From the NCBI GenBank assembly GCA_040757595.1, contig JBFLWP010000002.1, forward strand, positions 263,832 to 327,831: a stretch of DNA of 64,000 nucleotides, given 5' to 3'. Source of the stretch: Nitrospirota bacterium. GTDB taxonomy: Bacteria > Nitrospirota > Nitrospiria > Nitrospirales > Nitrospiraceae. A program made the translations under genes and the position numbers. Below, piece by piece: positions 11,630 through 25,190 of the stretch; the stretch's first letter is position 1, and every line of letters starts with the position of its first letter. The notes under the pieces were generated by a model. It was given only the letters and a program-made list of their open reading frames with translations. It made no database searches and was not told the origin of the DNA.

Positions 11630-11902
11630 TCACCGCCGATCGGGCAGATGGCTTGCTCCGGCGGATGGGTTAGCAAATCGGTTCCCCGTTCGCTCTTGCT
11701 TTCGAGTTGCGTGTCGAAGCTGAACGGGCAAGCTCCTTACGGCGAGCTGGCCGACGATCGCGTCCAGCCGCTCTTCGCACCGACCGCAGCAGGTGTCGTC
11801 GAGACCCATCTCCAGCTTGATCTCGTGACAGGACCCGGAGTGGCGCTCGACCATTTCAAGAAACCGGGCCTCGGTGATTCCTTTACAGAGGCAGACATAC
11901 AT
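11630..11902 (-). CDS. bfd: Bacterioferritin-associated ferredoxin-like [2Fe-2S] protein
   Basis: 90 residues from ATG 11902 with GGGAGG upstream. It starts MYVCLCKGIT as E. coli Bfd does, and has CCGRC at 38-42, giving Cys4, Cys6, Cys39 and Cys42 as [2Fe-2S] ligands. Bfd reduces the iron core of bacterioferritin and releases Fe2+. The C-terminal 40 residues are an extra basic tail. It is the first gene after a consensus promoter overlapped by a Fur box, so low iron should induce it, as expected for an iron-mobilising protein. Confidence 0.8.
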   Translation of the reverse strand: MYVCLCKGITEARFLEMVERHSGSCHEIKLEMGLDDTCCGRCEERLDAIVGQLAVRSLPVQLRHATRKQERTGNRFANPSAGASHLPDRR

Positions 11903-12046: not shown

Positions 12047-12090
12047 TGAGAATCAATATCAATTATATTGCGAGCCATCCTCTCTGTCAA
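12047..12090 (-). promoter_or_regulatory. Consensus sigma70 promoter with Fur box for the Bfd-like operon
   Basis: On the minus strand TTGACA (12090-12085), a 17-bp spacer and TATAAT (12067-12062) match the consensus exactly. TGAGAAT-C-AATATCA (12047-12061) is a 7-1-7 Fur box with two mismatches and covers the predicted start site. Fur-Fe2+ should block initiation. Confidence 0.75.
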
Positions 12091-12309: not shown

Positions 12310-12981
12310 CTATCCAAGCCCGTTAGCGAGAGTGAGAGGTACGCTGGTCACAGGCTGGAGCTCGAGCCGGACGAAGGTCTCAACGAGATCGGGCTCCAAT
12401 TGCGAGCCGGCGACCAACCGGAGCAGGCGCAGAGCCGACTCGTGGTCCCGCGCCGGACTGTACGGCCGGTCCGACGTGAGGGCGTCGAAGGTGTCGGCTA
12501 CGGCGAGCACGCGCGAACCAAGAGGGATGAGTGGGCCACGCAGCCCGTACGGATAGCCGGCTCCGTCCCACCGTTCGTGATGGTGCGCGATCCAAATGGC
12601 TGCGGTCTGGAGAAAACCGAACGGCTCCAGCAGCTCGGCGCCGGCCCTCGGGTGCGATTGGACCACGGCATATTCATCCATCGTGAGAGGACCGCGCTTG
12701 TAGAGAATCTCGTCTGGCATGGCCAGCTTGCCGAGATCGTGGAGCACCGCTGCGTACCACAGGTCGATCAAGTCGTCCGGGGAAAATCCGGCCGCACGTC
12801 CAAGGAGGACCGCGTAACGGGCGGTCCTGGTTCCGTGGTGATAGAGGTCAGGGTCCTTGATCGCCATGACTCTGGCGAGTCCGAGTAACATGTCGGAGCG
12901 CGAAGCGGCCTGGCACGCACGGTCGAGCAGATCTTCGGTCGCAGGATCGAGTTGGTACCGAGAGGGTTGTTTGACTGGCAT
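12310..12981 (-). CDS. HD-GYP-type cyclic di-GMP phosphodiesterase
   Basis: 223 residues, a stand-alone HD-GYP domain. VLHDLGKLAMPDEIL supplies the HD metal ligands and HHERWDGAGYPYGLRG is the GYP signature. Such enzymes hydrolyse c-di-GMP to pGpG or GMP. There is no sensor or receiver domain, so it must be controlled by expression or by partners. GAAGGAG precedes the ATG. Only about 20 bp separate the start from a perfect terminator hairpin, leaving no room for a promoter, so expression probably depends on read-through. The window's GGDEF regulator is at 54039. Confidence 0.85.
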   Translation of the reverse strand: MPVKQPSRYQLDPATEDLLDRACQAASRSDMLLGLARVMAIKDPDLYHHGTRTARYAVLLGRAAGFSPDDLIDLWYAAVLHDLGKLAMPDEILYKRGPLTMDEYAVVQSHPRAGAELLEPFGFLQTAAIWIAHHHERWDGAGYPYGLRGPLIPLGSRVLAVADTFDALTSDRPYSPARDHESALRLLRLVAGSQLEPDLVETFVRLELQPVTSVPLTLANGLG

Positions 12982-13000
12982 GGCAACTCCTTCTCTGTGT

Positions 13001-13091: not shown

Positions 13092-13604
13092 TCAACCTGG
13101 GCTCTTCCGAGCCACGAGTGGCTGCTTCAGAAACCACATCTCATAGAGCGGAACGACCATGGTGACAAGGAACGCGACGACCATGAGGATGTCGCCTGCC
13201 AGCAGCGTCAACACGAAGAATGGGGCGACGTAGGCGATCAGCCAGGGCGAGACGAGATCAAACCCTACGCCGGCGAAGGCCGCCCAGGTTGTCCAGGCCT
13301 TCGTACGGTCGCTGGCGCCGGTCAGGTAAAGTACATGCACGAGGATGATGAAGGTGACCGGCATGGTGAACAGATGAAAATGGGTGACCTCCGCTAGCTC
13401 CCGGAAGGACATGGGCTCCCCGAACGTGGCGTCCGAGCCCCGGTAGTGGTCGGCGATGCCTTGCGGAGACAAGCCCGTCATGCTGTGGGCCCAGTAGAAG
13501 CTGAAGGCAAAGGCGGCCAACGTGAACAGGAGAAACAACGTGTAGATGAGCCGGATGTGACGGTCCGTATCCCGCAGGCGGAAACGTGCGTTGAAATTGC
13601 GCAT
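13092..13604 (-). CDS. Four-helix integral membrane protein, possible electron-transfer partner
   Basis: 170 residues with about four membrane helices (near 18-40, 72-95, 103-125 and 128-155) and a periplasmic loop after helix 1. Histidines cluster at the start of helix 2 (THFHLFTMPVTF) and one is in its middle (ILVHVLYL), a spacing that could bind haem or a quinone, but this is inference. It follows the FMN-binding protein gene by 14 bp in the same operon, which suggests a membrane anchor or electron donor for that protein. No named family recognised. Confidence 0.7.
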   Translation of the reverse strand: MRNFNARFRLRDTDRHIRLIYTLFLLFTLAAFAFSFYWAHSMTGLSPQGIADHYRGSDATFGEPMSFRELAEVTHFHLFTMPVTFIILVHVLYLTGASDRTKAWTTWAAFAGVGFDLVSPWLIAYVAPFFVLTLLAGDILMVVAFLVTMVVPLYEMWFLKQPLVARKSPG

Positions 13605-13618
13605 GTCTGCCAGGTCCC

Positions 13619-14314
13619 TCAGCGTCCGAAGATCAGATCCAGGAAGCCCTTCTCTTGACGCCGAGCCACAACCTGGTCGCTGCCCTTGCCGATCGGCTTC
13701 AAGTACATCTCGTCAATCAGAACCAGCACCCGCTTGACCCCGGCGCTCATGGACCGGACCGACATCGTCGCGCCGGAAATGTTGATGATGTCCTTGTTGA
13801 GCCGGAGGGGATCGAGGACCGTCTTTCCTTCATACTGGTAGTTAAACCGCTTCCGGCCGACCTCGCTGCCGCGGGCGTCCCGGAACACCATCAGCTCGAC
13901 GTTCGTGACTTCGCCGGTGTTATCAGTCCCGACCATGTAAGTCATGTGCTTGTACTTCCCGATCGTGTTGCTGACCATTGCATACCCGTCAACCCTAGCT
14001 CCGGTCTCGCCGATGTAGATCTCGAATTCTTCCTCGGGAAACTTCCAGCCGATGCGGGATTCGACCACCTGCTTCTTCTCCGGAGTCAGACGGATGGTCT
14101 CTTTCTTGATCCGCTCGGACTTTGGCAGCATGAGCTTGAGGGCTTCCTCCTCGGTCATGAACTCCTCGCCCCATTTGGCGATTTCTTCCTCGGTGATGTA
14201 CCGGCGCAGCTCGTCGTCCCAGATCTTCTGGGCGGCCTGGACCGGTAGGGGCGCCAGGCCGATGACCACAGCGAGGGCGAAGGCTTTCGGGGCGGTTTTC
14301 AGGTCGGAGAACAT
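13619..14314 (-). CDS. Exported FMN-binding domain protein, likely flavinylated by ApbE
   Basis: 231 residues. A signal peptide ends near PVQAAQK (residue 28). The C-terminal half is an FMN_bind domain; ISGATMSVRS (about 179-188) matches the S/T-G-A-T-x-S/T flavinylation motif, with Thr183 the predicted FMN acceptor. A helical linker (EEEIAKWGEEFMTEEEALKL) precedes it. GGAGCGGGG precedes the ATG, which overlaps the upstream lipoprotein gene by 16 bp. ApbE, which transfers FMN from FAD, is encoded 3 kb away in the divergent operon. Role: extracytoplasmic one-electron carrier (inference). Confidence 0.85.
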   Translation of the reverse strand: MFSDLKTAPKAFALAVVIGLAPLPVQAAQKIWDDELRRYITEEEIAKWGEEFMTEEEALKLMLPKSERIKKETIRLTPEKKQVVESRIGWKFPEEEFEIYIGETGARVDGYAMVSNTIGKYKHMTYMVGTDNTGEVTNVELMVFRDARGSEVGRKRFNYQYEGKTVLDPLRLNKDIINISGATMSVRSMSAGVKRVLVLIDEMYLKPIGKGSDQVVARRQEKGFLDLIFGR

Positions 14315-14757
14315 CCCCGCTCCTTCAATTTGACGTTCAACCGCCGCATGAGACCGGCCATCTCCTCTTCCGACGGCTCGGCCGGCTCCCAACCGAAGAG
14401 GCGGGAGCCGCCGCGGAACTTCCAGCGCTCCCGCGTCTCGGCAAAGCTGACCTTGGTCACGTCGTTCAGCCTGGTCACCGTCACGGTGACGCGAGTCCGG
14501 TCCTTGGCGTCTTTCAGCTCGCGACCGAAGATTCCGTACGTCCGACCGGCCACCGGCACCTCCAGCCAACTCGTCTCGATCTTGCCGTTCTCCTTGTCCT
14601 TGAGCGTCACGGAACGGTCCTTCAGCGTGTCCAAGGAGGCGTCCCAGACCTGGGCGTAGGAGCAGACGAGGTACCGGTCCTGGACGCCTTCTATCGAAGC
14701 GCATCCGACGAAGAAGCTGCTGAGGGCGATAACGATGAGATTGCGAAGCAACAACAT
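14299..14757 (-). CDS. Lipoprotein of unknown function
   Basis: 152 residues with a type II signal peptide; the lipobox is FVGC with Cys19. The mature protein has alternating strands with TVTVTRLNDVTKVSF, a small beta-rich domain of the kind seen in many outer-membrane lipoproteins. It lies between the porin and the FMN-binding protein in the same leftward operon and overlaps the latter by 16 bp, so it probably serves the same envelope complex. No named family recognised. Confidence 0.75.
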   Translation of the reverse strand: MLLLRNLIVIALSSFFVGCASIEGVQDRYLVCSYAQVWDASLDTLKDRSVTLKDKENGKIETSWLEVPVAGRTYGIFGRELKDAKDRTRVTVTVTRLNDVTKVSFAETRERWKFRGGSRLFGWEPAEPSEEEMAGLMRRLNVKLKERGCSPT

Positions 14758-14819
14758 TGATAACCTTTTCGAAGGGTAGGTCCCTCCAGCCGATGACGGC
14801 TGGAGGGACCCACAACGGC

Positions 14820-16334
14820 TCAGAAGTACGTCGCGGCCATGGCCATGAACCCGTTTCCGTCAACCCGGTTACCTCGGGCCGTGGAGGTGGGGGTATTGGT
14901 CGCGTAGTTGTTGATGCTCGTGTTCAACTGGTTGTTGAACTGGTACTCGAACTTGAACACCGTGTCCTCGATCGGCCGGAAGTTCAAGCCGATCGTCAGA
15001 CGCGAGAGCTCCCGCGCATTGCCTGGGCAGGCAGAACCAGTAGTGATGCCAGCCAGGCAGGAGTTCCTCGTGATGTCGGTCGTGTCCGTGTCAATCTGCT
15101 CCCAGCGCACGACGGCGGTGAAGGTCGAGGCGTCCGTGAAATGGTCTGGGGCCAACTTCTTCAGGAAGTCCGGCAGGAAGTGGTAGTTGGCCTGGACATA
15201 GTAGCCGGCCATCCCGGACGGACCCACGGCGGTGGCCGTCTGGTTCCCGGTGATTCGGACCCAGTGCGCCTCGCCGATGAACTCCCAAGGCCCTTTCTGC
15301 AGGGTCCAGTCAACGGCGTACATGTTCACATAACTGTCGAAATTGTTGACGCCGTTGCTGTTCCTGTTGCCGAGCAGCCCATGATAGAAGGACCCGGCCA
15401 CTTCGATGCCCAACAGCGGGCTGTAGGCCAAGCGTCCGACGATCGCCTTGTCGCTGTTCGCGTCGCGCGCAAAGCTGCCCCGCGCGTTGCGGGTGCCGTT
15501 GAGGTCCGTGATGACCGTGCCCGGTGCAGCCAGGGTGCCGCTGCTGGTGTTCTGGAGTCCGTTGATCACGTAGAGTTCGTAGTCCACCTTGGCGAGCTTA
15601 CCGGGGTAAAAGGTGCCGTACATGCCGGCTCCGGCCTCTGTCCAGGTGGAAGGCATGATCATCCGGGCCACCATCGGCCGGTCCACCAGGTCGTTCAAGG
15701 GCGAGTCGTGCAAGAGGTTGAACTTGCCCATCGGGACCAGGATGAGCCCGGCTCGGACGTTGGCCGCCTCGTTGATCAGATAGTCAATCTGGGCGAATTC
15801 CAACTTGATCTCGCCGTCTGACTGGTTGTTGTTCGGTCCCCCCCGCTCGAATTCGATTTCCGTCGCGAACTTGATCCGATCCGTGATGTCCGAATAGATG
15901 AAGGGGATCATCCGGACCTGGTTGAAGGTGTTCCGGCTCCGGTTGTCCAGGTTGGACCGGGACAGGGCGTTGAACTGGATGTCCGCGTAGCCGCCCACCG
16001 TGGCCTTGGGCGCGCTCAAGAACGGCTTGGCATAGAGCAAGCGGCCCGAACCGGTAGAGGCGAAGGACAGGGGGACCTTCTCTTCGCCCGCCCGCTCTCG
16101 GGCGATCTCAGGGATCGGCCCGGTGCCGGTCGGCTTCTTGCCCTCGGGCAGGGGGGGGGCCGGTTCCCGCATTTTCTCCCGCTCCCGCTCTTTCTCCTCG
16201 AATTCCCTCATTTCCTGAAGTTGCTGCTCCAGCTTCTTGATCCGTTCCTCCAGGGTCTTGTCCTCCGCCTGTGCCGGAGCAGCCAGCATGGATGAACAGG
16301 CGACGAGAGCCCCGAGGATCAACCACGTCCTCAT
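14820..16334 (-). CDS. Outer-membrane porin with N-terminal coiled coil
   Basis: 504 residues. A signal peptide (to about residue 23) is followed by a coiled coil (EERIKKLEQQLQEMREFEEKE, about 28-56) and a Pro-rich linker, then a long beta-barrel with alternating polar and aromatic strands and a terminal Phe (AATYF), as in OprP/OprO-like porins. It would form a diffusion channel; the substrate is unknown. GGAGG lies 4 bp before the ATG. It follows the Com-like gene and a Fur-type promoter, so it may be made under iron limitation together with the FMN-binding protein. Confidence 0.8.
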   Translation of the reverse strand: MRTWLILGALVACSSMLAAPAQAEDKTLEERIKKLEQQLQEMREFEEKEREREKMREPAPPLPEGKKPTGTGPIPEIARERAGEEKVPLSFASTGSGRLLYAKPFLSAPKATVGGYADIQFNALSRSNLDNRSRNTFNQVRMIPFIYSDITDRIKFATEIEFERGGPNNNQSDGEIKLEFAQIDYLINEAANVRAGLILVPMGKFNLLHDSPLNDLVDRPMVARMIMPSTWTEAGAGMYGTFYPGKLAKVDYELYVINGLQNTSSGTLAAPGTVITDLNGTRNARGSFARDANSDKAIVGRLAYSPLLGIEVAGSFYHGLLGNRNSNGVNNFDSYVNMYAVDWTLQKGPWEFIGEAHWVRITGNQTATAVGPSGMAGYYVQANYHFLPDFLKKLAPDHFTDASTFTAVVRWEQIDTDTTDITRNSCLAGITTGSACPGNARELSRLTIGLNFRPIEDTVFKFEYQFNNQLNTSINNYATNTPTSTARGNRVDGNGFMAMAATYF

Positions 16335-16447
16335 TGTGCCTCCTTACAATGGTTGAGGTTGTTGGTTTGGCTCGGGACTCGGAGGTCTCTGACCTGGCTG
16401 CTGTGGAAAGGGTTCTCTTCCGGTGCCTCCTTAAGGTAAACGACTCG

Positions 16448-16624
16448 TCAGTTGACGGGCGTGGCCCAGCCTTCGATCAGCGAAAAGGGGATCAGAACGA
16501 TCCGCTTGCAACGTTTGCATTTCAACTCGATGCCGTCGCCGCGAAGCTTGGCCATCAACTGGCCGCACTCGCAGCGGGTCTCACCGGAGTCGGGACGGCG
16601 GATCATCTCGCTCTTGGTCGACAT
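16448..16624 (-). CDS. Com-like small zinc-finger protein
   Basis: 58 residues, easily overlooked. It contains TRCECGQLMAKL and ELKCKRCKRIVLIPF, giving C-X-C (18, 20) and C-X2-C (36, 39), the arrangement of the phage Mu Com zinc finger, an RNA-binding translational activator. Such Com-like proteins also occur in bacterial chromosomes with unknown roles. It is the first gene after the Fur-type promoter and precedes the porin. The Shine-Dalgarno is weak. Role unproven; translational control of the operon is one possibility. Confidence 0.65.
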   Translation of the reverse strand: MSTKSEMIRRPDSGETRCECGQLMAKLRGDGIELKCKRCKRIVLIPFSLIEGWATPVN

Positions 16625-16737
16625 TCCGTGTTCGAAAAGAATCGATTGGGAGAAGCCGACTTGCCGGCTCTGTCAGTGGCGATGCTCCGAGGCGAGCGAC
16701 GCAGTCCCTTTCGATTATCGAGGTAAAATTTCAAAAT

Positions 16738-16779
16738 TGAGAACGATTATTGATATCCTAATCATTGCTCGCCTGTCAA
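16738..16779 (-). promoter_or_regulatory. Fur-regulated promoter of the porin / FMN-binding operon
   Basis: On the minus strand TTGACA (16779-16774), an 18-bp spacer and TATCAA (16755-16750). A Fur box TGAGAAC-G-ATTATTG (16738-16752) overlaps the -10 and the predicted start site. The region 16730-16830 is strikingly AT-rich compared with its surroundings. Confidence 0.65.
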
Positions 16780-16809
16780 TAATAATTTTAACGATATCTA
16801 TCAATAGCT

Positions 16810-16844
16810 TGCGAATTATTCTCAGCTGGCGTGAGTGCTATGAT
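16810..16844 (+). promoter_or_regulatory. Second Fur box and extended -10 promoter for the divergent lipoprotein-apbE pair
   Basis: TGCGAAT-T-ATTCTCA (16810-16824) is a palindromic 7-1-7 Fur-like site. Downstream, TG-C-TATGAT (16836-16844) is an extended -10. A further TATAAT at 16916-16921 lies 7 bp before the lipoprotein ATG and may be a second, leaderless start. Confidence 0.5.
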
Positions 16845-16928
16845 TCAGGGTTGACGGCCTTGGTCGCGCTTGACCGGTGACGCAAGCGCGTCGTGCAATC
16901 CCTCGGACGGTTCCGTATAATATTATCC

Positions 16929-17552
16929 ATGCGAAGCGGAAGACCGGTGTCCTGGCTCAGCGTGATCGTGCTCGGCGCATTGGAGTGCCTGCTGGCTGCC
17001 GGCTGTGCCACGACCGCTCCGTCGCCGGATAGCCAGATCCCTCACGCCTCCGTCGTGTTCGGCCGGACCGTGACGGTTCTGACCGCTCCCTCAACCCGCC
17101 GGTACGAGCCCAAGGTCCGGTTTTTCGAGCTGGTGAATCGCACCACCCAGGAACGATACAAAGTCGAGGTCCAGTCCCAGGACAAGGTCTTCGCGATCGA
17201 GCTTCCGGCCGGGGACTATGTCCTGTCGCGTGTCCAGATCAGCGAGGGGCCCTTTCTCTCCATGGCCGACCTCGACGCGGCGTTCCAGGTGGAGAGTGAT
17301 CGCGTGCTGTACCTCGGCACCTGGCGATTCGGCGTGGATGGCCCCCGCTATGGCCGCATGCTCGTGGTCTCGGCGGTCCAGAATCAGGAGGATCAGGAGG
17401 AAGCGGAGCGACAGATCTTCGTTCGGTATCCCGAGCTCGCCGGACAACCGATCGCCAGCCTGTTGCCGGCCCCGGTCGCCGCCGAGGTCCGCCTCTACGA
17501 AGTCATGCCCTATCCCTACTACCCCCGCTACTACCGCCGCCATTGGTGGTAA
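16929..17552 (+). CDS. Lipoprotein of unknown function
   Basis: 207 residues from ATG 16929. A signal peptide ends at LAAGC (Cys26). The mature protein is beta-rich, with a probable Ig-like or DUF-type fold (LPAGDYVLSRVQI), and ends in an aromatic/Arg tail (YPYYPRYYRRHWW). No Shine-Dalgarno is seen, but TATAAT ends 7 bp before the ATG, suggesting a leaderless mRNA; a GTG at 16893 is an alternative start. It is divergent from the porin operon and is followed by apbE 23 bp later, so it probably belongs to the same envelope system. Confidence 0.75.
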   Translation: MRSGRPVSWLSVIVLGALECLLAAGCATTAPSPDSQIPHASVVFGRTVTVLTAPSTRRYEPKVRFFELVNRTTQERYKVEVQSQDKVFAIELPAGDYVLSRVQISEGPFLSMADLDAAFQVESDRVLYLGTWRFGVDGPRYGRMLVVSAVQNQEDQEEAERQIFVRYPELAGQPIASLLPAPVAAEVRLYEVMPYPYYPRYYRRHWW

Positions 17553-17575
17553 GCTTTAGCCCTGCTCTCGGCGTG

Positions 17576-18595
17576 ATGATCCGTCAATTCCTTCCAGGCG
17601 TTTCATGGCTGCTCCTCGGTGCTCTCCTGGGCTGTGCCCATGCCCCCGATCAGGCCCCGGTCGTGCTCAAGCGGGCGCAGATGCAGATGGGGACGCTCGT
17701 GCAGATCACCGTCGTCGCGCCCACGGAGCGGATCGCGCAGGAGGCGGCGACGGCCGGCTTTCAGGAGATTCGCCGTCTGGAAGAGCTGCTCAGCACGTGG
17801 ATTCCGGCCAGCGAGCTCTCCCGGGTGAATGCCGCTGCCGGGAGGGAGCCGGTCCGGGTCAGCCCCGACACGTTCCTCGTGTTGCAGCGCTCGCTCGACA
17901 TCGCCCGGCTGACGGAAGGGGGATTCAACATCGCCGTGGGACCGGCCGTGGAGGCCTGGAGCGTGACGGAGCGTCAAAAAGTGCCCGGCGATTCCGAGTT
18001 GGAGGCCCTGCAGCCCCTCCTGGACGTCGCCCAGATCCGACTGGATGAGGGGGCGGGAGCGGTGTTCCTGGCGCGCGCCGGGATGCGCGTTGACGTGGGC
18101 GGGATCGGCAAGGGCTTTGCGGCCGATCGGGCCGTGGAGGCGATGAAGTCAGCCGGGGCCACCGCCGGCGTCGTTGCCCTGTCCGGCGACATCAAGACGT
18201 TCGGCCGCCTGCCGGACGGAGCGCCGTTCCTCTTCGGCATCCAGCATCCGCGCCGCCCGGGCGTGCTGGCCAGGGTCACGCTCCAGGACGAGGCGATCTC
18301 GACCGCGGGAGATTATGAGCGGTATTTCGAGCGCGACGGGGTCCGCTACCACCATATCCTGGACCCGCGGACGCTCAAACCGGCCCGCGGCTGCCAGAGC
18401 GTGACCGTCGTCGCCGCCGAGGGCATCATGGCGGACGGGCTGGATACGGGCATTTTCGTGATGGGGCCGGAACGGGGCATGGAGCTGATCGAACGGCTGC
18501 CGGGAGTGGAGGGGGTGATCGTGGACGGCGAGGGACGGGTCCTCGTGTCGTCGGGCCTCAAGGGGCGTCTCGTCCTGGATCCGGACGCTCCGTGA
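17576..18595 (+). CDS. apbE: FAD:protein FMN transferase (lipoprotein ApbE)
   Basis: 339 residues. The lipobox is LLGC (Cys20), so it is anchored facing the periplasm. Conserved ApbE segments include MGTLVQITV, LSTWIPASELSRVN, VDVGGIGKGFAADRAVE and the metal-binding SGDIKTFG, and later YHHILDPRTLKPA and ADGLDTGIFVMG. ApbE transfers FMN from FAD to a Thr or Ser of FMN_bind proteins. The likely target in this window is the product of 13619-14314. A GTG at 17543 overlapping the upstream gene is an alternative start. Confidence 0.93.
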   Translation: MIRQFLPGVSWLLLGALLGCAHAPDQAPVVLKRAQMQMGTLVQITVVAPTERIAQEAATAGFQEIRRLEELLSTWIPASELSRVNAAAGREPVRVSPDTFLVLQRSLDIARLTEGGFNIAVGPAVEAWSVTERQKVPGDSELEALQPLLDVAQIRLDEGAGAVFLARAGMRVDVGGIGKGFAADRAVEAMKSAGATAGVVALSGDIKTFGRLPDGAPFLFGIQHPRRPGVLARVTLQDEAISTAGDYERYFERDGVRYHHILDPRTLKPARGCQSVTVVAAEGIMADGLDTGIFVMGPERGMELIERLPGVEGVIVDGEGRVLVSSGLKGRLVLDPDAP

Positions 18596-18606: not shown

Positions 18607-19026
18607 TTATTTGAAGACGATCTTCTTCAAGCTGGAGACGGGGAGGAGCACCTCGCCGAAGTCGGACTCTCCCTTGAACTGTCCGCCGATCGCGAGCGGA
18701 AATTCTCCGGTCTTCCCCTTGTGCAGGGTGATGACGAAGAGGGTATGATCTTTGTCCACGCCGGGTTTCGTCTCGATCTGCTTGATGTCCTCGAACTTGA
18801 CGTTGATGGTGGCCGCCCCGCGCTTGACCGGCACGTGCCGCATTTCGTGCAAAGCCACGTGCGTCTCGTCGACCTTCTGCTCCCAGTAAAAGACGAGATT
18901 CTTGACCTCGGTTTCGGTCCCCTGGGCGTCGGTGATGACAGCGTGGAAGACTTTGTCGGATTTGCCCTGAGCCCAGACGATTCCTGTGAACAGGCACAAG
19001 GCGGCGAACAACGCGATCAGTCTCAC
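18607..19026 (-). CDS. Periplasmic protein of unknown function, end of the tonB operon
   Basis: 139 residues from a GTG preceded by AGGAGAGG. A signal peptide (to about WAQ, residue 20) is followed by a small beta-rich domain with regular strand-turn spacing (HAVITDAQGTETEVKNLVFYW). It is the last gene after exbB, exbD and tonB and is convergent with apbE, 11 bp apart. The position suggests a role linked to TonB-driven uptake, but I recognise no family. Confidence 0.7.
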   Translation of the reverse strand: MRLIALFAALCLFTGIVWAQGKSDKVFHAVITDAQGTETEVKNLVFYWEQKVDETHVALHEMRHVPVKRGAATINVKFEDIKQIETKPGVDKDHTLFVITLHKGKTGEFPLAIGGQFKGESDFGEVLLPVSSLKKIVFK

Positions 19027-19097
19027 GATTCCTCTCCTGGTTCCATGATGTCGGTTGAGCAAGGCCGTTCCTTCGCAAGTGTCTGGCAGAAGTGGTC

Positions 19098-20066
19098 CTA
19101 CCGCAATTTGTACGTGATCGGGATCTGAACGACGACCTGGGGGCGGCCCAGCTCGTGCGGAAGCTGGAGCGGCGTCGCGCGACGCACGGCTTCCAGCGCT
19201 GCCTGGTCCAACTCCTCGTGCCCCGAGCCTTCCAGGACGTCTAGGGACCTGAGCCCTCCATCGTCTCCGATCACCGCCCGCAGGAGCACGCGCCCTTCCA
19301 CTCGGTTGGCCCGCGCCGCGGCCGGATACCGTTTGAACCGTTCGACCCGGCTCCAAAGCGTCTGGGCCAGCCACCCATAGTCAGCCTTCGGCGCAGGGAC
19401 CGCGCGCACCCGCACCTCTTTGACGGAAGACTGCTCGACGGCCGGGGCTGATTGCACGGGAATCTCTTGGAGCTTGGGTTCCCGGACGACAGAGGCGGGG
19501 GGAGCCGCATCGGGGAGAGGGCGCGGCGGCGCCATCGGCTCGACGCTGGTTGCCTTGGCGACGATCTGTGCGGTTGTCGAGGTCGTTGCGGATTCGACGG
19601 ACGTGGCGGAGACGGGTGTTTCCTGAACGACCTGGCGCGTCTCACGGGTCGCCACCGACTCGGCTTGGGCTTGGGCCGGGGGCTGGGCAATCTCTCGAAT
19701 GGCCTGGGGAGATGGCGCCGTTTGGGTCGCCACCGGCACCGTCTCGACCTCGCGCACGATCGGTTTGATTTCGCGCACCTCCTGCCGGACGACGGTCTGA
19801 ACTTCCCGCACCTGCTCCACTGGTTGCACCGGTTGCACGGGCGGCTTGGTCTGTGCCGGAGCGGGGGGCGCCTCGGCGGGCGCGGGCGCCGGCTCATGGA
19901 CGACCGCGATCTCCCAGCGGAACGGCTCCGGTTGCGGCGCAAGGCGCAGGTTGCTCACCAGCAGGATCGCGACCCCGACGGCCAGCCCGTGCAGGAGAAC
20001 GGAGACGACCCAACTCCCCGCGTACCGCTGCAGTTCGCCCTGATGGCGGAGCGAGACGGTGCTCAC
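19098..20066 (-). CDS. tonB: Energy transducer TonB
   Basis: 322 residues. One N-terminal membrane helix (about 20-40), a long Pro/Ala/Val/Glu-rich periplasmic spacer (about 50-225, with TKPPVQPVQPVEQV-type repeats) and a C-terminal TonB domain with YPAAARANRVEGRVLLRAVI and a closing beta strand (VVVQIPITYKL). TonB carries proton-motive force from ExbB-ExbD to outer-membrane receptors. The ATG overlaps exbD by 4 bp. No TonB-dependent receptor gene lies in the window. Confidence 0.93.
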   Translation of the reverse strand: MSTVSLRHQGELQRYAGSWVVSVLLHGLAVGVAILLVSNLRLAPQPEPFRWEIAVVHEPAPAPAEAPPAPAQTKPPVQPVQPVEQVREVQTVVRQEVREIKPIVREVETVPVATQTAPSPQAIREIAQPPAQAQAESVATRETRQVVQETPVSATSVESATTSTTAQIVAKATSVEPMAPPRPLPDAAPPASVVREPKLQEIPVQSAPAVEQSSVKEVRVRAVPAPKADYGWLAQTLWSRVERFKRYPAAARANRVEGRVLLRAVIGDDGGLRSLDVLEGSGHEELDQAALEAVRRATPLQLPHELGRPQVVVQIPITYKLR

Positions 20067-20437
20067 GAGCGCTCGACCTCCAGGCTCACCTGCCGGAAGC
20101 CCAATCCCCGGACCTCGTCCACGACCTGGACGAACCGCTCCAGCAGGGTCACGCGATCGGCGCGGACGACGACCAGGGACTCGCGCGGATGCGGGGCGAG
20201 CACGGCCTTCAACCCGTCCTGGGTCACCGGCTGGTCGTTCAGGAACAGCCGCCCGTCGGCGGTAAGCGTGAGCACCAGCGGAACGTCCTTGCGGTCCCCG
20301 GCTTCCTTCGCTTTGGCGAGATCCACCGGGATCTGGCCGGTCGTGATGAACGTGGCGGTCGTCAACACGATGACCAGCAGCACGAGCATCACGTCCACCA
20401 GGGGAATGACGTTGATCTGATTCAACTCACGCTCCAT
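20063..20437 (-). CDS. exbD: Biopolymer transport protein ExbD
   Basis: 124 residues. One N-terminal helix with NVIPLVDVMLVLLVIVLTTA contains the key membrane aspartate of ExbD, followed by a periplasmic domain. ExbD is a stator component of the TonB motor. It overlaps exbB at its start and tonB at its end. Length and order are typical. Confidence 0.93.
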   Translation of the reverse strand: MERELNQINVIPLVDVMLVLLVIVLTTATFITTGQIPVDLAKAKEAGDRKDVPLVLTLTADGRLFLNDQPVTQDGLKAVLAPHPRESLVVVRADRVTLLERFVQVVDEVRGLGFRQVSLEVERS

Positions 20438-20852
20438 GCCGAACCTTGTAGAGCGTGATCAGCTCGGCCACCCGTCGCCGGAGCACGTTGTTCAGGACCA
20501 CGCAGGGAATGGCCACGAGCAGGCCCACCGCCGTGGCCTTCAAGGCCAGGCTCAGCCCGATCATGATCGTGCTGACCGCCATTTGCCCGGAGGTGCCCAT
20601 GGTGTGGAAGGTGAGCATGATGCCGAGCACGGTGCCCAGCAGGCCGATGTAGGGGGCGTTCGCCGCGACCGTGCCGATGATCACGAGGCGCTTGGTCAGG
20701 GCCAGTTCGAAGACCTGCAGGTTGGGGAACTGGGAGGCGTCCACGCGGCGGTAGAAGAGCCACCGCTCGACGGCGACCGCGACCGACCAGACGCTGAGGG
20801 CGAGCAACAGCCCGATCACTCCGTAATCGACGGTTTCTTTCAAGGCCTCCAT
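20427..20852 (-). CDS. exbB: TonB-system proton channel protein ExbB
   Basis: 141 residues, shorter than E. coli ExbB. Three membrane helices are visible; the region APYIGLLGTVLGIMLTF and the later LALKATAVGLLVAIPCVV match the MotA/TolQ/ExbB signature. It forms the pentameric channel around ExbD. It lies 68 bp after fbpC with no terminator apparent, so it may be co-transcribed with the iron ABC transporter. The TolQ/TolR alternative is less likely because a TonB gene follows and tolA/tolB do not. Confidence 0.9.
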   Translation of the reverse strand: MEALKETVDYGVIGLLLALSVWSVAVAVERWLFYRRVDASQFPNLQVFELALTKRLVIIGTVAANAPYIGLLGTVLGIMLTFHTMGTSGQMAVSTIMIGLSLALKATAVGLLVAIPCVVLNNVLRRRVAELITLYKVRHGA

Positions 20853-20920: not shown

Positions 20921-22045
20921 TCAGGCCGGGAAGGAACTCGAACCCTCCTCGAACAGCACGGTGTGGGTGGCCAGGACTTGAACCTCCACCGGCGTTCCGA
21001 CGGGATAGACGCTGGTGGAGGTTTCGCTGCTGTGGAGGACGTGGCCGGACGGGAGACCGATCGTATAGAGGTTTTCCGAGCCGCGGAACTGCCGGGCCAG
21101 AATCCGTGCGGTGCAGTGCGGGGACGGAGCGATGTGGACGTCGTCCGGACGGATCATCACCACGACCTTGGCTCCGCCCCGGTAGCCGACCTGGTTGGGG
21201 AATTCGCCGATCTCGGTCAGCACCTTCCCGTTCTCCACGAGGCCGGGGATGAAGTCCGCCTGCCCGACGAAATCCGCCACGAACGGGGTGGCCGGCGTGT
21301 GATAGATGGCTTCCGGCGTGTCGAACTGCTCGAGGCGGCCGTGGCTCAGAACGGCCACCCGGTCGGCCATCGCGAAGGCCTCCTCGTGATCGTGCGTGAC
21401 CAGGATCGCGGTGGTTCCGGTGCGGGTCAGCAGCTCGTGCAGGTCCTCCCTCATCTTGCCCGTCATGTCCGGGTCCAGGTTGCTGAACGGCTCGTCCAGC
21501 AGCAGGACCACGGGCTTCTGCGCCAGGGCCCGGGCGAGCGCGACCCGTTGTTGCTGACCCCCGGACAGCTCATGGGGGTAGCGGCGATCCAGGCCGGCCA
21601 GGCCGGTCAGAGCCAGCATCGCCTGGACCTGCTCGCTCCGCTCCCGGGCGGGCAGTGACTGGAGCCCGAAGGCGATGTTGTCCGCCACGCGAAGGTGGGG
21701 GAAGAGGGCGTACTCCTGGAAGACCATCCCCACGCGACGATCCTCGGGCGGGACCAGGAGATGCGGGGAGGAGACCAACCGGCCCTCCAGGTAGACTTCG
21801 CCGTCCGTCACCCGCTCGAACCCGGCGATCGCGCGCAGCGTGGTGGTCTTTCCGCAGCCGGAGGGGCCCAGCAAGCAGAGGATCTCCCCGGCCCGCACGG
21901 AGAAGGTCACGTCGGCGATCGCGACGCGCCCCTTCTCGTAGGCGCAGGAGACGCGGCGGAGCTCCACGACGACCGGGCGGTCCCGCTCGTCGGACAGGCG
22001 TGCGGTCAGGACCGGATCGGCGCGCTGGCGTTGCCCGATGGACAT
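20921..22045 (-). CDS. fbpC: Ferric iron ABC transporter, ATP-binding protein
   Basis: 374 residues. Walker A GPSGCGKTT, Q-loop in FQEYALFPHL, signature LSGGQQQRVALARAL and Walker B VVLLLDEPFSNLD are intact. A C-terminal regulatory domain (about 265-374, TOBE-like) follows, as in FbpC. It powers import of Fe3+ delivered by FbpA through FbpB. It starts 32 bp after fbpB. Confidence 0.92.
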   Translation of the reverse strand: MSIGQRQRADPVLTARLSDERDRPVVVELRRVSCAYEKGRVAIADVTFSVRAGEILCLLGPSGCGKTTTLRAIAGFERVTDGEVYLEGRLVSSPHLLVPPEDRRVGMVFQEYALFPHLRVADNIAFGLQSLPARERSEQVQAMLALTGLAGLDRRYPHELSGGQQQRVALARALAQKPVVLLLDEPFSNLDPDMTGKMREDLHELLTRTGTTAILVTHDHEEAFAMADRVAVLSHGRLEQFDTPEAIYHTPATPFVADFVGQADFIPGLVENGKVLTEIGEFPNQVGYRGGAKVVVMIRPDDVHIAPSPHCTARILARQFRGSENLYTIGLPSGHVLHSSETSTSVYPVGTPVEVQVLATHTVLFEEGSSSFPA

Positions 22046-22077: not shown

Positions 22078-23628
22078 TCACGCCGCCCGCCAGTCCTTCG
22101 AGACCAGCAACAGCAGGGCCGGCAACGTCATCACCACGATCAAGAGGGCCGACGGGGCGGCGAGCTGATAGTACTCTTCGCTGGCTTCCAGCCAGACCCG
22201 AACGGCCAGGGTGTCGAAACCCACGGGGCGCAGAAGCAGCGTGGCGGGCAGCTCCTTCATGCACTGCAGGAACATCAGGACCCAGGCGGCGACGAAGCCG
22301 CCGCGCACGAGCGGCAACGTGACCCTCCACAGGGTCCGCAGGGTGCCGAAGCCCAGGCTCCGCGACGCCTCCTCCAGGTTCGGCGTGACCTGCTGAAGCG
22401 CCGGCTCCATCGTCTGCAAACCGGCCGGGAGGAAGTGGACGATGTAGGCGATGATCAGCACCAGGGCCGTGCCGTACCAGAACGGCGCCAGGTGGGAGAA
22501 CAGCAAGAGCAGGGCAAGGGCGCCGACGGGGCCGGGCAGGACGTACCCGACGTAGGCGGCCTGGAAGCAGAGCTGGTTGAGCCGGGACGGCCAGCGGGTG
22601 GCCAGGTAGGCGAGCGGGGTCCCGATGACCACCGCCGCGGTGGCTGCCAAACCGGACAGGAGCACGCTGTTCCAGACGAAGCCGAGGAACCGGCTGTCCA
22701 GCGCGCCTTCCGCCACCGCCCCGACGCTCCAGCGCAGGAGCAACCAAGCCGGCGCCCCGAACGAGACGCCGAGCACGAGCGCCAGGTAGCCGGTCACGAG
22801 GATCGTGCCGAGCAGCCTGCACCGTTTCCTCTGGGAAGCGCGGTAACGTCCGGTCGTCTGGTAAAACCGGCTGCGCTGCCGGAACCAGCGCTCGGCGAGC
22901 AGGAAGATCAGGGCGGACAGCACCAGCAGGAGGCTCAGGATCGACGCCGCGGCGTGGTCGTACCGGCCCGTCACCTGCTGGTAGACCGCGTAGGTGAACG
23001 TCTGGTAGCGCAGGAGCGAGACGGCGCCGAAGTCGGACACGACGTAGAGGATCACGAGCGAGAGGCCGGCCACGATGGCCGGGCGCAGCAACGGCAGGGT
23101 CACCCGCAGCCACACGCGAACGCGCGACGTGCCGCACACCCGCGCGACCTCCTCGAACGACACGTTGAAGTTGAGCAGGGCGGCCCTCGTGAGCAGGTAG
23201 ACGAACGGGAAGGTGTCCAGGGTCATGACCAGGGTGACGCCGGCGAAGCTGTGCGGGGGGAAGAGGGGGAAGGGGCCGCCGGACCCCAACAGGTAGCTGT
23301 ACACGTAGGCCAGAACGTAGGTGGGCATGGCGAGGGGCAGCGCCAGCGCCCATTCCCAGGTGCGACGGCCGGGGAAGTCGTACCGGACGACGAGCCAGGC
23401 GAGGGACACCCCCAACAGGAACGTGCCGGCTGCCACGCTCAGCGCCAGCGAGCCGGTATTGGCGAGGAGCTCGGGGATGCGGGTGATCCAGAGCCGGCCC
23501 CATACGGAGCGGTCGGTGGACAGGGCCAGGTAGGTGACGAGGAGGACCGGCAGGCAGATCAGGCCGGCGACCGCCACCGCGATGACCGAGAGCGACGAAG
23601 GGAACGACTGTCGAACCGCGACGCCCAT
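22078..23628 (-). CDS. fbpB: Ferric iron ABC transporter, permease
   Basis: 516 residues with about twelve membrane helices, the fused double-permease form typical of FbpB/SfuB. Each half carries an EAA-type loop (FEEVARVCGTSRVRVWLRVTLP and LEEASRSLGFGTLRTLWRVT), which contacts the ATPase. It lies between the binding protein and the ATPase genes. The operon starts after fur, which fits iron control. Confidence 0.92.
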   Translation of the reverse strand: MGVAVRQSFPSSLSVIAVAVAGLICLPVLLVTYLALSTDRSVWGRLWITRIPELLANTGSLALSVAAGTFLLGVSLAWLVVRYDFPGRRTWEWALALPLAMPTYVLAYVYSYLLGSGGPFPLFPPHSFAGVTLVMTLDTFPFVYLLTRAALLNFNVSFEEVARVCGTSRVRVWLRVTLPLLRPAIVAGLSLVILYVVSDFGAVSLLRYQTFTYAVYQQVTGRYDHAAASILSLLLVLSALIFLLAERWFRQRSRFYQTTGRYRASQRKRCRLLGTILVTGYLALVLGVSFGAPAWLLLRWSVGAVAEGALDSRFLGFVWNSVLLSGLAATAAVVIGTPLAYLATRWPSRLNQLCFQAAYVGYVLPGPVGALALLLLFSHLAPFWYGTALVLIIAYIVHFLPAGLQTMEPALQQVTPNLEEASRSLGFGTLRTLWRVTLPLVRGGFVAAWVLMFLQCMKELPATLLLRPVGFDTLAVRVWLEASEEYYQLAAPSALLIVVMTLPALLLLVSKDWRAA

Positions 23629-23646: not shown

Positions 23647-24693
23647 TTATCGCAAGCCAGCCCGCTCGATCAGGTTCATGGCCGGCTCCCGCAGTTCGCC
23701 GAGCTTCGCCAAGGGCACGGCCGCGGCGCGGAAACTGTCCCGTTTGGGCAGGGCGGGATCGGCGGCGACGTCGGGGTGGAGGGGATACTCCTTGTTGAGG
23801 TCCGCGAAGAGCTTCTGCCCGTCCTGCGAGGCCAGGAATTCCACGAGCCGCTTGGCGGCAGCGCGGTGGCGCGAATGCTTGGCCACGCCGACGCCCGCGA
23901 CGTTCATGATGGCGCCCATGCCGCCGTCCTGCTGGTCCAGCATGAGCAGCGCGATCGGCGCGTCCGGATGGGCCGCCAGATGGCGATAGACGTAGTAGTG
24001 GTTGACCAGCCCGACCGCCGCCTCGCCCTTGGCCACGGCTTCCACGATCTGGGAGCTCTTGCCGAAGACGGAGGTGCCGGCGTTGGCCTTGAGCCCCTGG
24101 AGGAACCGCTCCGTCCGCTCGTCCCCGTACACGGCCTTGATGACCGACACGCCAGCCTGCAGATATTCGCTGCCGGCGTTGGGGATCGCGACCTTGCCCT
24201 TCCAGTTGGGATCTCCCAGCTCGAGGATCGAGGTGATCTCGCCCGGCTTGACCTGCCGCCGGTTGTAGACCAGGATCCAGAACCGGCCCGAGAGGCCGAT
24301 CCAACTGTTGTCCACCGCCCGGAAGGGCGCCGGGACGCCCCGCTCAACTTCCTTGAGGTCGAGCGGCAGGAGCAGGCCCAGTTCGCGGGCCCGCTCCAGG
24401 CTGCCCGCGTCGTTGGTGATCAGCAGATCGGCCTGGGTCCGGTCCCCCTCGGCTTGGAGCCGGTTGACGAGCTCCGTGGCCCCGGAGGAGAGCAGGTCCA
24501 CCTGGATGCCGGTCTTGGCTTGGAACGCGTCCAGGACCGGCTTGATCAGGCGCTCCGCGCGGCCGGAGTAGACGACCAGTCGGTCGGCGGCCCCGGCTTC
24601 CACGGCCGCGGTCAAGGTCCAAAGAGCCAGCAGAACCGCCAGCAGCCGGCCGGAAGAAGAGGAGAGAATTCGATGAAAATGAAATTGATTCAT
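23647..24693 (-). CDS. fbpA: Ferric iron ABC transporter, periplasmic binding protein
   Basis: 348 residues. A signal peptide (to about EAGAA, residue 35) is followed by a class II binding-protein fold: LVVYSGRAERLIKPVLDAF, TNDAGSLERARELGLL and NHYYVYRHLA, where the paired tyrosines are typical Fe3+ ligands of FbpA. It captures ferric iron in the periplasm. The ATG has no Shine-Dalgarno, but TATAAT ends exactly 7 bp upstream, so a leaderless transcript is predicted. It follows fur by 32 bp and leads fbpA-fbpB-fbpC. Confidence 0.92.
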   Translation of the reverse strand: MNQFHFHRILSSSSGRLLAVLLALWTLTAAVEAGAADRLVVYSGRAERLIKPVLDAFQAKTGIQVDLLSSGATELVNRLQAEGDRTQADLLITNDAGSLERARELGLLLPLDLKEVERGVPAPFRAVDNSWIGLSGRFWILVYNRRQVKPGEITSILELGDPNWKGKVAIPNAGSEYLQAGVSVIKAVYGDERTERFLQGLKANAGTSVFGKSSQIVEAVAKGEAAVGLVNHYYVYRHLAAHPDAPIALLMLDQQDGGMGAIMNVAGVGVAKHSRHRAAAKRLVEFLASQDGQKLFADLNKEYPLHPDVAADPALPKRDSFRAAAVPLAKLGELREPAMNLIERAGLR

Positions 24694-24725: not shown

Positions 24726-25157
24726 TCAGTGCCGGCAGCCGGAGCAGAGGCCGTACAGCTCGAGCTTGTGGGTCTGAATCGTGAACCCGTTGCGTTTGGC
24801 GACTTCTTCCTGCAGTTGCTCGATGTCGCAGTTCTCGAACTCCACGATCTTTCCGCAGCCCGTGCAGATCAAATGGTCATGGTGTCCCTTGTGCGAGACG
24901 TTGTCGTACTGGGTCTGGGTACCGAAATGGCGGGCCTGGGCCAGGCCCGCTTCGCAGAAGAGGTTCAGCGTCCGATAGATGGTCGCCAGCCCGATGTGCG
25001 GATCCTTCTTCGCCAGGAGTCGGTACATCTGCTCGGCCGTGATGTGCTCGTTCCTCAGGAACACGTTGAGGATCTGCTCCCGCTGACGCGTCAGCTTGAG
25101 CTGGTGCTTGCCCAGGTGTTCCCTCAGGACCGTCATCTCCTTGAGTTGTCTGTTCAT
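24726..25157 (-). CDS. fur: Ferric uptake regulator, Fur family
   Basis: 143 residues. An N-terminal winged helix (LKLTRQREQILNVFLRNEHITAEQMY and IGLATIYRTLNLF) is followed by the dimer domain with the HHDHLICTGCG motif (regulatory metal site plus CxxC) and a second pair CSGCRH at the C-terminus, giving a structural zinc site. Fur represses iron-uptake genes when Fe2+ is plentiful. A Fur box lies just upstream, so it probably regulates itself, and the fbpABC-exbBD-tonB run follows directly. PerR or Zur are alternatives, but the iron context favours Fur. Confidence 0.9.
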   Translation of the reverse strand: MNRQLKEMTVLREHLGKHQLKLTRQREQILNVFLRNEHITAEQMYRLLAKKDPHIGLATIYRTLNLFCEAGLAQARHFGTQTQYDNVSHKGHHDHLICTGCGKIVEFENCDIEQLQEEVAKRNGFTIQTHKLELYGLCSGCRH

Positions 25158-25175: not shown

Positions 25176-25190
25176 TGATAATGAATATTA
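25176..25190 (-). promoter_or_regulatory. Fur box upstream of fur
   Basis: TGATAAT-G-AATATTA matches the 7-1-7 Fur consensus well (first half exact). It lies about 20 bp before the fur ATG and near a weak promoter (TTGCGC, TTAATA), consistent with autoregulation. Confidence 0.7.

Follow-up and report, generated by a model that had tools for sequence, protein, structure and literature searches.

We analysed a 64,000-nucleotide stretch of a Nitrospirota genome (positions 263,832 to 327,831 of contig JBFLWP010000002.1; hereafter the window), in which positions 13,092 to 18,595 hold two divergent operons encoding a porin, two lipoproteins, an exported FMN_bind protein, a four-helix membrane protein (4TM), a small Cys-ribbon protein and the flavin mononucleotide (FMN) transferase ApbE. 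These genes probably encode a periplasmic electron-transfer module, flavin-based and repressed by Fur, which aids iron acquisition in Nitrospira. At the level of sequence, this reading is carried by the gene set itself, the exclusive pairing of ApbE with FMN_bind, conserved synteny, joint loss of the genes, Fur boxes and a neighboring iron importer. Nitrospira rank among the leading nitrite oxidisers, and comammox organisms belong to them; their enzymes are rich in iron, and their iron acquisition is little described. An order-wide iron module built on a single FMN_bind/ApbE pair would constitute a directly testable route of iron acquisition.

The host genome (3.37 Mb, rated 100% complete) has Nitrospira and other Nitrospirales as its relatives. 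All seven genes named in an original prediction, made from the letters of the window, are present as open reading frames (ORFs). From a control region of 304 bp (48% G+C), the Cys-ribbon, porin, LIP1, FMN_bind and 4TM genes run leftward, while LIP2 and ApbE run rightward:

13092..13604, minus strand: four-helix membrane protein (MEM, here 4TM), from alignments and hydrophobic segments
13619..14314, minus strand: exported FMN_bind protein (PF04205), 231 amino acids (aa), SGATMS motif with Thr183
14299..14757, minus strand: lipoprotein LIP1, lipobox FFVGC
14820..16334, minus strand: outer-membrane porin, a beta-barrel preceded by a coiled coil at the N-terminus, from structure model and Foldseek
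16451..16624, minus strand: 58-aa Cys-ribbon ORF, CxC...CxxC kept in 31 sequences
16738..16752: Fur-like box TGAGAACGATTATTG, kept in the majority of Nitrospirales loci
16810..16824: Fur-like box TGCGAATTATTCTCA, 11/12 positions
16929..17552, plus strand: lipoprotein LIP2, lipobox LLAAGC, present in some relatives
17576..18595, plus strand: ApbE FAD:protein FMN transferase, lipoprotein form (PF02424, 4e-83)

The LIP1 and FMN_bind genes share 16 bp at the start of the latter, and the LIP1 product matches DUF3576 below the Pfam threshold. The Cys-ribbon ORF had been described as a Com-like zinc finger; the conserved ribbon is real and Com-like by eye, but it has no match in Pfam.

ApbE and FMN_bind form an exclusive pair

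The FMN_bind protein matches PF04205 at 1e-5, above the cut-off, and a profile search relates it to RnfG in the PDB (4.7e-9). ApbE carries the lipobox LLGC and is hence predicted to be exported and itself a lipoprotein. Given the start codon ATG at 14314, Thr183 of the SGATMS motif had been numbered correctly, and [S/T]GATMS is present in 15/15 aligned FMN_bind sequences. The FMN_bind protein is a predicted substrate for flavinylation by ApbE. The complete genome contains exactly one FMN_bind match and one ApbE match, and both fall within the module.

Relatives in other families of the class (loci L114-L117 and L119) encode natural ApbE-FMN_bind fusions of about 500 aa. In the L114 fusion the ApbE domain spans residues 13-288 and the FMN_bind domain residues 415-493. 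Such fusions would be handy single-chain models of flavinylation, and their genes lie as follows:

L114, 5107-6630: ApbE-FMN_bind fusion gene
L115, 7943-9466: ApbE-FMN_bind fusion gene
L117, 7395-8906: ApbE-FMN_bind fusion gene
L119, 9729-11255: ApbE-FMN_bind fusion gene

Co-occurrence was followed in 30 genomes picked with (19) and without (11) the 4TM gene. Each of the 19 with this gene has FMN_bind and ApbE of the module type, while nine of the 11 without it have neither and two have ApbE alone; in these last two, the contig stops on the side where the module is expected. Joint loss of 4TM, FMN_bind and ApbE gives a Fisher p of 3.8e-6, a value not corrected for the relatedness of the genomes. 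Single copies, joint loss and natural fusion all point to the functional pair of ApbE and FMN_bind that had been proposed.

A different pair is found in three of the nine module-free genomes (FMN_bind in a 277-aa frame, ApbE in a 353-354-aa frame). Seven genomes (G073, G080, G124, G138, G246, G258 and G038) have a second, different pair, with FMN_bind in a 277-290-aa frame and ApbE in a 353-386-aa frame, about 3 kb apart in most of them. This second pair may belong to Na+-NQR.

Gene order is conserved across Nitrospirales

Synteny was counted in 46 loci, of which four repeat a contig already included, leaving 42 distinct Nitrospirales loci. The order porin-LIP1-FMN_bind-4TM is kept in 41 of them, and in the remaining one the contig begins inside LIP1. 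The gene set is thus not a chance assembly, and the expectation of conserved synteny is borne out. Most loci in families f1 and f3 also have the Cys-ribbon ORF and the divergent ApbE gene. Across a phylum-wide sample, the 4TM profile matches 81 of 245 genomes. Other orders and classes contributed eight loci (L114-L121), in all of which FMN_bind and 4TM remain together, joined by the porin where the contig extends far enough. In the locus comparison, the labels TBDT6372, P8752, O25394 and G27649 are probably antisense ORFs and were disregarded.

The module looks to be under Fur control

Both Fur-like boxes claimed for the control region are there, at 16738-16752 and 16810-16824. The box at 16810 outscores 500/500 shuffles of the control region, and a Fur-like sequence, TGAGAACGATTATT[A/G], recurs ahead of the Cys-ribbon/porin operon in most loci. 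Two further boxes lie nearby:

25176..25190: Fur-like box before fur, 10/12 positions
12047..12061: Fur-like box before bfd, about 145 bp upstream of the gene (11630-11902)

The window has three sites at 10 or more of 12 positions (12047, 16810 and 25176), where 0.27 would be expected. With at most one mismatch, the whole genome also has three: those at 12047 (bfd) and 16810 (module), and one ahead of a second bfd followed by bacterioferritin (L143). Two of the three best boxes in the genome therefore lie in or beside the module cluster. When two mismatches are allowed there are 23 genomic sites against 6 for a reversed control, so the weaker sites are individually unreliable. A longer motif, GAGAACGATTATTRATATC, was rejected as a regulon-wide motif; it occurs once in the genome at up to three mismatches, and a shorter palindrome was used for the scans in its place. 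The bfd-type [2Fe-2S] gene at 11630-11902 is assigned by PF04324.

A Fur regulon member is marked by a promoter box and by a fur gene in the same genome, and both are present. By its sequence, then, the module looks to be under Fur control and would be expressed on iron starvation.

Iron genes beside the module

The functional neighborhood reaches to about 25190 and includes an iron ATP-binding cassette (ABC) importer, fur and the TonB system:

19098..20066, minus strand: TonB (PF03544, 2.6e-16)
20063..20437, minus strand: ExbD (PF02472, 2.7e-23)
20427..20852, minus strand: ExbB (PF01618, 1.6e-26)
20921..22045, minus strand: ABC transporter ATPase
22078..23628, minus strand: ABC transporter permease, two-domain (PF00528, two stretches)
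23647..24693, minus strand: periplasmic iron-binding protein, FutA/FbpA type (phmmer)
24726..25157, minus strand: Fur-family regulator, best-scoring of three in the genome

In phmmer searches the binding protein is nearest to solved iron-binding proteins of the FbpA and HitA types (7li0, 5e-62; 2pt1, 4.9e-50), and it retains the paired tyrosines (YY) of the iron site. This homology and the conserved tyrosine pair are what defines a FutA/FbpA importer. Phosphonate labels from NCBIfam were rejected for this protein, as all their scores lie far under the cut-offs.

Similar neighbors recur in distant relatives. A fur gene lies near the module in six of the loci L114-L121, recognized by Pfam in L114, L117 and L120 and by the helix motif in the sequence only in L115, L116 and L119. 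An ABC importer stands beside the module in L115, L116 and L119, ferritin beside it in L120, and FeoB upstream in L121. Together with the boxes and the adjoining fur and importer genes, this context agrees with the iron control that the original prediction had proposed.

4TM as a candidate electron donor

The membrane protein has four hydrophobic segments and histidines, as had been noted, and its N-terminus is probably cytoplasmic. It has no relative in Pfam, NCBIfam or the PDB. A fold search with its structure model gave no significant match, and VIA-align returned generic helical bundles only (best Z 9.9, usual for bundles). The alignment shows H53, H75, H77 and H90 to be invariant within the order. 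H75 and H77 are kept across the whole superfamily; H90 is kept in the short forms beside FMN_bind genes and replaced by Gly in a sister family.

This sister family, of about 250 aa, carries CxxCH in the periplasmic loop between transmembrane helices TM1 and TM2:

L122, 8725-9480: CxxCH sister gene
L123, 8800-9561: CxxCH sister gene
L125, 8506-9312: CxxCH sister gene
L127, 8817-9548: CxxCH sister gene
L128, 8948-9724: CxxCH sister gene

The L128 gene has a Rieske/cytochrome b pair on one side and a cytochrome c gene on the other, and that of L127 adjoins a cytochrome c gene. Because the sister proteins have this motif and these neighbors, 4TM is suggested to be an electron-transfer protein at the quinol pool. 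Next to the sister genes of L127 (10022-11248) and L128 (10175-11362) are proteins of about 400 aa with an N-terminal CSxCH, which match no family in Pfam or NCBIfam.

Outside Nitrospirota, distribution was drawn from plasmids only. No hits came from a tblastn search of plasmids with 4TM, a remote homologue and the CxxCH sister. Porin, FMN_bind, ApbE and a 4TM gene lie in one row on plasmids of Ideonella, Methylocystis and Bradyrhizobium (L077, L078 and L080). As in Nitrospira, porin, FMN_bind and ApbE stand together; hhalign relates the Bradyrhizobium FMN_bind protein (5.7e-21) and porin (1.2e-21) to their Nitrospira homologues. In contrast, the proteobacterial 4TM is unrelated to the Nitrospirota family in profile comparison (hhalign probability 1.9%), and the genes around the cassette do not clearly point to iron. 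Four conserved histidines lie in two of its helices, and one such protein matches DUF4405 below threshold; heme b binding has been shown for DUF4405 (PMC11334425). A fixed trio with an exchangeable membrane partner supports an electron-donor role for the 4TM position. A further plasmid cassette (L081) has FMN_bind, ApbE, a four-histidine 4TM and a DUF6662 protein where the others have the porin homologue.

Relation to described systems

By its sequences the module appears to be an ApbE-based extracytosolic electron-transfer system that falls into none of the named subsystems. Since the kind fits and no named subsystem does, we treat it as a variant outside them. The original prediction did not recognize the gene set as a described system. 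This holds for the set, which is absent from the open-access papers searched (subscription papers and supplements lay outside the search), but the kind is described, and flavinylation has already been tied to iron assimilation (PMC8238504). That paper uses neither "porin" nor "Nitrospir" in its main text, and the open-access literature searched yielded no Nitrospira paper on the module.

The iron assimilation systems of PMC8238504 (PepSY-like, MsrQ-like and P19) share with the Nitrospira module ApbE, an exported substrate (FMN_bind or similar) that bears [S/T]GA[S/T], and linkage to iron transport genes; Fur control is reported for the PepSY-like clusters. The Nitrospira module differs from them in its fixed porin partner, in an importer of the FutA/FbpA type rather than VIT1 or FTR1, and in a membrane part that by Pfam is none of NapH, MsrQ, PepSY, DsbD, NQR/RNF and DUF4405. 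4TM would thus add a transmembrane component beyond the described flavinylation-associated classes.

Precedents for freeing iron by reduction in the periplasm are FoxB, FpvG, FrcB, FsrB and HiuB (PMC8891985, PMC10760861, PMC12424826). FoxB, FpvG, FrcB, FsrB and HiuBC share with the present module small inner-membrane parts with few transmembrane helices, iron regulation and periplasmic reductive release, the last being predicted here. They work through heme or PepSY proteins and have no flavinylated carrier, and several stand beside TonB receptors, whereas the Nitrospira module lacks a PepSY domain and contains a flavoprotein together with a porin. The pairing of PepSY with a TonB-dependent receptor that marks FoxB/HiuABC operons is absent; the locus has no PepSY match, and the genes with Plug domains (TonB receptors) lie on other contigs than the module.

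The importer itself has the same binding protein, permease and ATPase as FutABC/FbpABC, with fur alongside. Among described loci, we know of no FutABC/FbpABC importer linked to an FMN_bind, ApbE and porin set.

Place of action and mechanism

The porin matches Porin_O_P below the Pfam threshold. Its model (predicted local distance difference test, pLDDT, 65) resembles the general porins OmpC, OmpM1 and OprP in Foldseek at about 1e-10 to 1e-12, so that its identity as a porin, weak by sequence, gains from the predicted structure. Because it models as a general diffusion porin, action in the periplasm is favored over action at the cell surface. No CxxCH occurs in the module proteins, and the multiheme cytochromes of an MtrCAB-type conduit are therefore missing. 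The pairing, synteny and iron control of the original prediction hold up, but its placement of the activity at the cell surface does not, as the parts point to the periplasm.

In the mechanism that we propose, flavinylation, quinol electron flow via 4TM, a ferric substrate and hand-over to the binding protein are the predicted steps. Under iron scarcity Fur would come off its two boxes (16738 and 16810), allowing transcription of both operons. ApbE, exported and lipid-anchored, would attach FMN to Thr183 of the FMN_bind protein; 4TM would then draw electrons from the quinol pool and hand them to this FMN. Once reduced, the flavoprotein could reduce ferric chelates that enter via the co-expressed porin or, alternatively, ferrisiderophores that enter via TonB receptors. 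Released iron would go to the FutA/FbpA-type binding protein and on to the neighboring ABC importer. Iron reduction has likewise been proposed to precede FutABC uptake in cyanobacteria.

Several observations weigh against this scheme. FutA/FbpA-type proteins classically bind Fe3+, for which reduction is not obviously needed. The host genome, judged from match scores and frame lengths, is read as lacking an FeoB that would take up Fe2+ (matches to FeoB_N are weak and GTPase-like). The 4TM model, of moderate quality (pLDDT 72), matches no cytochrome, and the conserved transmembrane histidines are confined to one helix, so that bis-His heme ligation would require a dimer. In family f2 the core adjoins an ABC importer and in f4 the core stands alone; in neither was ApbE seen near the module. 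Finally, the Methylocystis plasmid cassette lies near copper-oxidase genes, and the substrate need not be iron everywhere.

The best of the rival explanations, although an unlikely one, is iron-sparing, in which a Fur-induced, heme-free FMN carrier would substitute for a cytochrome-c-based periplasmic chain and would serve a respiratory or other reductase rather than iron. The heme-c motif in the loop of the sister family and the adjoining cytochrome c genes lend this credibility, as does the discussion of flavin/cytochrome interchange, and of its advantage under poor iron, in PMC8238504. However, the module has no oxidoreductase gene, a porin belongs to the set, and the recurrent neighbors are iron importers, fur, ferritin or FeoB.

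The same assimilatory surroundings speak against electron transfer to ferric minerals at or beyond the cell surface through the porin, as first proposed, which we consider very unlikely; the porin is the constant partner of the FMN protein, and a comparable position in the sister loci is held by an exported CxxCH protein (about 400 aa), but no cytochrome is encoded in the module and the porin model is like general diffusion porins. We give the least credence to redox handling of another metal such as copper, or to general periplasmic repair, with iron control secondary. The copper-oxidase genes beside the Methylocystis cassette and a Massilia FMN_bind homologue beside ABC and DsbD-domain genes are in its favor, yet the Nitrospirota neighbors are iron genes across several orders and classes.

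Beyond a periplasmic role in iron acquisition, we put forward a bolder proposal, possible though doubtful, that 4TM founds a new transmembrane electron-transfer family with two interchangeable forms, one using a separate flavoprotein for iron acquisition under Fur control and the other its own heme c with cytochromes. In this proposal incoming ferric chelates would be reduced by a trans-envelope assembly of porin, FMN protein and 4TM.

Two further genes adjoin the module. A small exported protein (about 18607-19059, minus strand) sits between tonB and apbE, and an HD-domain (HD_5) protein lies at 12310-12990, with homologues nearby in many relatives.

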